From an uncultured Bacteroidota bacterium (GTDB lineage: Bacteria; Bacteroidota; Bacteroidia; B-17B0; Aurantibacillaceae), in NCBI GenBank assembly GCA_903834765.1, contig CAILKE010000053.1, positions 1 through 64,000 of the forward strand: DNA of 64,000 nt. The letters are read 5' to 3'. A program made the translations under genes and the position numbers. The notes beneath the pieces were generated by a model. That model made no database searches, was not told where the DNA came from, and worked only from the letters and a program-made list of their open reading frames with translations. Below are positions 35,458 to 37,010 of this stretch, piece after piece. Each line of letters begins with the position of its first letter. Positions within the stretch are counted from its first letter, which is position 1.

Positions 35458-35728
35458 TAATAAGTTTGTTAAAAAAAATACCAAATACTTTCCAGCTAGG
35501 AAGTGAACACCCGCTCCGACGCATTTGTAATCATAAGTGTTCGGAACCTTAATAATTAGTTCTTAATAATACCCCCGTTGTTGCGGACGCGTCGTCCGTG
35601 ACCCAATACTTCCCCCGCTAGGCAGTATTTGCGCCAACATGAGCTACGCTTCATTTACAAAGCTACTGCTATAAAATCTTATAGCAAGCATTTATTCCCA
35701 AGCAGCAAATAATTATTTGAACACCCGA

Positions 35729-35760
35729 ACACCTGTCAGGTTTTAAAACCTGACAGGTGT
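35729..35760. repeat. REP element: 32-base perfect palindrome upstream of RAYT
   Basis: ACACCTGTCAGGTTTT followed immediately by its exact reverse complement. Its arm reappears at 35902-35914 and at 36513-36545 around the RAYT gene. This is the CCTGACAGGT-type REP family. Confidence 0.9.
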
Positions 35761-35901
35761 ATACTCCAACACATGAACTCCGTTTCATTTATAACACTTC
35801 AGCTATAAACACCTGAAGTCTCTAATTATGGATTCAAATTCAAAATGCTACAGTTTATAGCAATCAGTTACTATAAAATTGCTTTATTTTGTTACTTCAA
35901 G

Positions 35902-35914
35902 AAACCTGACAGGT
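35902..35914 (+). repeat. REP half-element directly before the RAYT start
   Basis: AAACCTGACAGGT, a half-copy of the REP palindrome, ends 13 bases before the RAYT ATG; possible binding site of the transposase near its own start. Confidence 0.75.
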
Positions 35915-35927
35915 CTAAAAAAACAAC

Positions 35928-36503
35928 ATGGAAAAAATTGAACATTTACAATATGGAAAATATTATCATATTTATAACCGTGGAATAAATAGCCAACCTA
36001 TTTTTTTTGAACCTTGTAACTACGATTATTTTTTAAAACTATATCAAAATCATATAGACCCAATAGCTGAAACCTATGCTTGGTGCTTGATGAAAAATCA
36101 TTTTCATTTTTTGATTAAAATAAAAGATGAAAATGAAGTCATTAATATTAAAGCTCCGCATCACTATTTTTCTAATTTATTTAATGCTTATACTAAAGCA
36201 ATTAATAAGAAATATAATAGGCATAGTAGTTTATTTCAGCGTTCATTTAAACGTAAACTTATCGATGACGAACGTTATTTCAAAAATTTAATTATGTATA
36301 TTCATAAAAACCCTGTAAATCATGGAATTTGTGAAAACATTATGGATTACCCTTGGAGTTCCTATTTAACTTGTATTTCTGACAAACTAACTAAATTAAA
36401 AAGAGAAGAGGTTATCAATTTATTTGATGACCTAGTTAATTTTAAAAACGTTCATCAATTAAATATAAACTGTTTAGAGATTGAAAATTATTTTGAACTA
36501 TGA
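35928..36503 (+). CDS. REP-associated tyrosine transposase (RAYT, IS200-like Y1 superfamily)
   Basis: 191 residues. HUH motif as NHFHFLIK with the two metal-binding His, preceded by YAWCLMKNH; N-terminal YYHIYNRGINSQPIF is typical of RAYTs. SSLFQRSFKRKLIDDERYF and MYIHKNPVNHGIC contain the expected region with the catalytic Tyr (probably in YIHKNPV or ERYF). RAYTs nick single-stranded REP hairpins and are thought to spread or domesticate them. Flanked on both sides by perfectly matching REP palindromes, giving a REPtron. Intact reading frame; may be active. Confidence 0.93.
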   Translation: MEKIEHLQYGKYYHIYNRGINSQPIFFEPCNYDYFLKLYQNHIDPIAETYAWCLMKNHFHFLIKIKDENEVINIKAPHHYFSNLFNAYTKAINKKYNRHSSLFQRSFKRKLIDDERYFKNLIMYIHKNPVNHGICENIMDYPWSSYLTCISDKLTKLKREEVINLFDDLVNFKNVHQLNINCLEIENYFEL

Positions 36504-36512
36504 ATTCCTAGA

Positions 36513-36545
36513 ACACCTGTCAGGTTTTTATAACCTGACAGGTGT
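36513..36545. repeat. REP element downstream of RAYT
   Basis: ACACCTGTCAGGTT / AACCTGACAGGTGT, a 14-bp perfect stem with a TTTAT loop, matching the upstream REP copy. Begins 10 bases after the RAYT stop. Confidence 0.9.
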
Positions 36546-36568: not shown

Positions 36569-36889
36569 ATGCTGGATAAAGATTTAGCCGAGTTATATGG
36601 AGTTGCAACAAGTAATTTAAACAAGCCTGTAAATCGAAATTTGAAACGTTTTCCAAACGATTTTATGATTCAATTAGATGAACTATAGTTCAAAAACTTG
36701 ATGTTCCAAAATGGAATATAAAGTTGGGGAGGAACCAGAAAATTACCTTTGGTGTTTACGGAACAAGGTGTTGCGATGAAAAAGAAGTTAGATAATCAAG
36801 ATAAGAACATGGAAATTGTTTTTAGATACTTCGATGAATTAATAGAGAAAAAAGAAAATACAAAGCCTCGAACAAAAATTGGATATTAA
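36569..36889 (+). pseudogene. ORF6N-domain gene, decayed
   Basis: Reading from 36569 in one frame gives [20 protein letters not shown] in part, then [32 protein letters not shown] and a helical tail, all hallmarks of ORF6N (phage-derived DNA-binding) proteins. The frame is interrupted by TAG at 36686 and TAA at 36719 without any frameshift, and the usual ~15-25 residues before KVMLD are missing. The break lies next to the downstream REP element, suggesting the RAYT/REP insertion removed the start. Not expected to give a working protein. Confidence 0.8.
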
Positions 36890-37010
36890 TTTCCTAAAAA
36901 TAAGTAGAAGCCTTTCGATTTACCGTTGCTCATTTGATAGCAAATAAAGATAGAACTCTTATTTATTTAAAAAGGGTGCTAGCACTCTGCCAAAATGTTT
37001 TTCATTGATA

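Follow-up and report, generated by a model that had tools for sequence, protein, structure and literature searches.

The question raised by this locus is whether a small transposase gene and the palindromes on either side of it move together as one element, are neighbours by chance, or are a resident enzyme and its cognate repeats. The DNA analysed (the window) is 64,000 nt long. The sequence-only reading had described an intact RAYT gene between near-identical palindromes, with a half-site 13 bases before the start codon, and both descriptions were confirmed in the features listed below. The locus is very probably a REPtron, in which a Y1/HUH transposase (RAYT, TnpA_REP type) that is resident, single-copy and inherited vertically is paired with REP palindromes cognate to it.

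35729–35760, no strand assigned: upstream REP, a perfect 32-bp palindrome (ACACCTGTCAGGTTTT/AAAACCTGACAGGTGT), from inverted repeat and fold
35885–35892, plus strand: possible Bacteroidota −7 promoter element, a near match to TAnnTTTG just 5′ of the half-REP
35902–35914, plus strand: half-REP AAACCTGACAGGT, with 13 nt left before the ATG, from alignment with the full REPs of G013, G006 and G009
35928–36503, plus strand: RAYT (TnpA_REP-type Y1 HUH transposase), 191 aa, HUH motif N57-H58-F59-H60, catalytic Tyr124
36513–36545, no strand assigned: downstream REP (ACACCTGTCAGGTT-TTTAT-AACCTGACAGGTGT), starting 9 nt past the stop codon, from inverted repeat and fold

Inverted-repeat search of the window resolved the upstream REP into two perfect 16-nt arms and the downstream REP into two perfect 14-nt arms with a loop of 5 nt. 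Folded as single-stranded DNA, these gave −15.8 and −16.0 kcal/mol, respectively (both z about −8). The 10-mer core ACCTGACAGG was present five times in the 64-kb window, with every copy at the RAYT locus, against 0.01 copies expected from dinucleotide shuffles. Each REP is an inverted pair whose halves (ACCTG-A-CAGGT) are palindromes in their own right, a feature overlooked in the sequence-only reading. The upstream REP is flanked by a 39-nt direct repeat (79% identical; 35637–35675 and 35771–35809), and a decayed, stop-interrupted ORF6N-domain gene lies directly 3′ of the downstream REP (36569–36910; Pfam ORF6N, E = 1e-13, 37 aa).

The ORF product matched Pfam Y1_Tnp, with no other domain found in the 191 aa, and scored 70.8 bits with NCBIfam REP_Tyr_transpos, below the cut-off of 80. 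The top PDB match of its AlphaFold model (pLDDT 90) was 4er8, the E. coli TnpA_REP bound to a REP hairpin (E = 9e-9, TM(target) 0.72), followed by IS200/IS605 transposases. H58, H60 and Y124 were invariant in 34 aligned sequences; the catalytic tyrosine, whose lack had been named beforehand as fatal to the proposal, is present as Tyr124. Values of dN/dS between related RAYT pairs were 0.05–0.24, indicating that the gene has been kept as a working protein under purifying selection.

Pattern searches of the source genome (G000) gave about four REPs: two at the locus, one on contig C43 (one mismatch), and pieces ending contigs C29 and C77. The palindromes are thus not limited to the RAYT locus. 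The gene and its palindromes had been put forward as a complete candidate for an active RAYT–REP pair; the pair stood, on the fold, the tyrosine and the flanking and dispersed REPs, but the word active was not supported. The number of REPs here is very low, and RAYT activity in this genome may be low or past. With up to two mismatches allowed, 10–19 REP copies were found in many Flavobacterium genomes, and none with the reversed pattern used as a control. Among 50 sampled REPs, 46 lay outside ORFs, and 3 of the 4 calls within ORFs came from rows in which the palindrome had been mislocated by the script (L102, L104, L140). No conserved tetranucleotide was found outside the stem in the 50 copies, and the REPs of the window likewise have no GT[AG]G foot.

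The sampled copies were mostly intergenic and often no more than 30 nt from the end of an ORF, a placement that would suit ordinary host bidirectional terminators or regulatory hairpins to which the RAYT gene is adjacent by chance. The C43 copy, with its A-tract, hairpin and T-tract, resembles a terminator and points the same way, as do the 11 REP-like hairpins of mixed types kept in the sister genome G002, where no RAYT was detectable; these either survived loss of the RAYT gene or accompany a RAYT that was missed. Against such host hairpins, the presence of REPs was tied to RAYT-bearing genomes: of 87 genomes of the family, 8 had a close RAYT, and a perfect hairpin was present in 7 of these and in 5 of the remaining 79 (p = 1e-6).

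RAYT relatives were drawn from Flavobacterium, other Bacteroidota and MAGs titled Chlorobiota. Most had hairpins of about 33 bp on either side of the RAYT gene, sharing one plan with different letters (ACCTGWCAGGT, ACCCGAAAGGT, GCTTCCAGCC, CCCTTTCAGAG and others), and a half-REP of the locus's own type lay within 120 nt of the RAYT gene on the upstream side in 36 of 42 loci and on the downstream side in 38 of 44. The 10 REP types required nine changes on the RAYT tree, which is the minimum and was matched by 0 of 200 shuffles; since the types were read from these same loci, this co-variation shows clade-wise association and not specificity, and near-copies inflate the counts. Where two RAYTs occurred in one genome, each had its own REP type (L028/L049 in F. 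soyangense and L032/L066 in another genome). Stem changes were compensated in 22 of 27 two-mismatch REP copies. REPs were also found in frame inside the RAYT gene of four relatives (L037, L038, L073 and L085); the peptides at these places, such as NLTGFENLSGF, lie at the linker that joins the HuH motif to helix C.

A REP type that tracks the RAYT clade and is not shared by two RAYTs of one genome, hairpins on either side of most RAYT genes and REPs in frame within some of them make a chance neighbourhood with host terminators very improbable, and the link with RAYT could stand even if some copies served as terminators. The pairing of RAYT with REP is well supported by the fold, the catalytic residues, the flanking REPs in relatives, the agreement of REP type with the RAYT tree and the dispersed extragenic copies. 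What such a pair would do can be drawn from the TnpA_REP enzymes already studied, from which binding, nicking, strand transfer and REP movement are inferred. In the most likely mechanism, a RAYT dimer would bind the REP once it has folded as single-stranded DNA, as could happen on the lagging-strand template; Tyr124 would cut beside the REP and the ends would be joined elsewhere, so that REPs would be copied or moved into intergenic sites and the RAYT gene would stay put.

Movement of 35729–36545 as a whole, in the manner of an IS200/IS605-like insertion sequence with the palindromes as its ends, would be in keeping with the matching hairpins that bracket the gene, the HUH/Y1 enzyme and the patchy distribution of RAYT (5 of 20 genomes of the genus). 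The position of the gene argues otherwise. RAYT is single copy in the source genome and lies 3′ of nrdA, in the same orientation, in G000, G013, G006 and G015, four species of the genus, with an internal stop in the G015 copy. Two more genomes carry decayed remains at this nrdA-downstream place: a REP and the opening RAYT codons (ATGGAAAAATTTGAG) in G009, and a C-terminal RAYT stub of 18 residues adjoining a REP in G008. A locus shared by four species, with such stubs, implies long residence with repeated loss and not the behaviour of an insertion sequence. No identical RAYT+REP units were found elsewhere in one genome or in sister strains, solitary REPs do occur elsewhere, and RAYT is not near IS200 in the tree. 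The bracketed gene as a mobile unit was therefore rejected on its fixed nrdA locus and single copy; we regard whole-unit mobility as extremely unlikely, and a resident RAYT with dispersed REPs is the preferred reading.

At this nrdA-downstream locus the REP is ACCTGTCAGGT in G000 and ACCCGAAAGGT in G006 and G013. Scattered copies of ACCTGTCAGGT, some of them decayed, are still carried by G006 and G013, and these leftovers beside a ACCCGAAAGGT locus suggest that the REP type may have switched at a locus that did not move. An insertion of the REP after nrdA in G006 was compared with the sisters, and the spacer was too divergent for its borders to be set.

The half-site was accounted for by the same relatives. 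The leader of the window aligns with those of G013, G006 and G009, in which a full REP stands at the place of the half-site, about 17 nt before the ATG; in the window this alignment leaves the right half of the REP only, the left half being absent. The promoter-like TTTACTTTG/TTATTTTG adjoins the REP or half-site, with flanks conserved in the sisters. The simplest reading of this alignment is that an ancestral full REP lost its left half and that the half-site is the right half that survived. The half-site had been taken to suggest autoregulation or a nicking site at the gene's own start, which the sister alignment did not sustain, favouring a remnant of a full REP over a purpose-built operator or nick site. 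Autorepression by RAYT through the half-site as a dedicated operator would be compatible with a REPtron, and it gains from the position of the half-site between the promoter-like TTATTTTG and the ATG and from the REP kept close before the ATG in relatives. We nevertheless consider it unlikely, given the full hairpin at that place in G013, G006 and G009, the missing left half in the window, and the folding of the half-site as a single strand, which was no better than chance (z −0.4).

For comparison with known systems, subclass labels were given to reference proteins by the motifs tabulated in PMC6006769 and not by the models of its authors. The E. coli TnpA_REP/RAYT (subclass 2.2; 4er8) is alike in its HUH/Y1 fold, its single copy and its flanking REP hairpins dispersed in the genome, and matching GCATCCGGCAG...CTGATGCG hairpins were found by script on both sides of rayT, as a control for the searches of the reference flanks. 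It differs in sequence (16% identity in the structural alignment) and lies elsewhere in the tree. In its REPs the stem is bulged and GTAG stands at the foot, whereas those of the window have a near-perfect stem and no GT[AG]G. IS200/IS605 transposons share the Y1 HUH enzyme and terminal hairpins, but the gene of the window is single copy at one locus and its hairpins are dispersed.

Subclass 2.6 (Bertels group 5; Bacteroidetes; PMC6006769) also consists of Bacteroidota RAYTs with atypical palindromes that have no GTAG foot. Its proteins carry NH[LIV]H, WQ and YIH[QN]NP with a median HuH–Y distance of 82, whereas the window clade carries NHFH, FQ, YIHKNP and PWSSY with a distance of 67, and the 2.6-like proteins L208, L217, L209 and L216 formed a separate clade in the tree. 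Assignment to subclass 2.6 was rejected on motifs and tree position. In-frame REP insertions between HuH and Y, which have been described as a feature of subclass 2.4 (Bertels group 4) alone, prompted a comparison with that subclass, which differs in its GT[AG]G-footed REPs and in a protein with WQ and YIxNNP; this assignment was likewise rejected, the GT[AG]G foot being absent and FQ standing in place of WQ.

The nearest references in the tree were those of subclass 2.1, the TIRYTs of TIRtrons (PMC6006769, PMC3733652), which share NH[YF]H, FQ and a downstream SS motif; the window clade branches off separately next to the 2.1-like references and is not nested among them. Subclass 2.1 is reported to have no REPs and a C-terminal HTH domain, and is equated with TIR-flanked TIRYTs (PMC6006769; PMC3733652), some TIRs being self-complementary and repeated, in likeness to REPs (PMC6006769, PMC3733652). 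Unlike these, the RAYT of the window is flanked by full hairpins, and no HTH domain was found in it. GGGG[TA]CAG repeats (GGGGWSAS-type TIRs) were present at both ends of the 2.1-like L221, L224 and L227, and flank searches of these three found no hairpins; REP-like hairpins were present at L203, L207 and L210, three small Bacteroidota neighbours in the tree.

RAYT–REP pairs outside Proteobacteria, a point stressed in the sequence-only reading, are already published (PMC6006769), and a literature search on the REP sequence and on REPs of Bacteroidetes yielded no closer work than PMC6006769 and PMC3733652. Motifs and tree set the window clade apart from subclass 2.6, the Bacteroidetes subclass with published REPs, and place it with subclass 2.1, which is reported to be devoid of them; it suggests that REP association reaches relatives of the latter. 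A tentative proposal, which we hold to be possible but somewhat less than even, is that the clade is a Bacteroidota RAYT subclass sister to the TIR-associated 2.1, that its REP consists of two inverted copies of a palindromic TIR-like half-site, and that REP and RAYT specificity switched together at an unmoved locus (ACCTGTCAGGT here versus ACCCGAAAGGT in G006 and G013). If this is true, TIRs and REPs would be stages of a single system, and pairs for working out the rules of recognition would be at hand. The clade bears on how REPs are spread by RAYTs and on how each RAYT selects its REP. It offers orthologous RAYTs about 70% identical, at one locus and with different REPs, together with two-RAYT genomes with different REPs and loss stubs beside surviving REPs. 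Recognition swaps can thus be tried directly in culturable Flavobacterium, as can dependence on RAYT.

A clean empty site was sought for the C43 REP; the sisters have no REP there, but the alignment was untidy and the borders were blurred. In the orthologous regions of G006, G013 and G009 (L292, L293 and L294), the place without a REP is occupied by a small gene-like stretch of several hundred nt. It is bounded by inverted repeats (CCGCAGATTTC... and ...GCGAAATCTGCGGG), and may be a further small gene with a repeat of its own.
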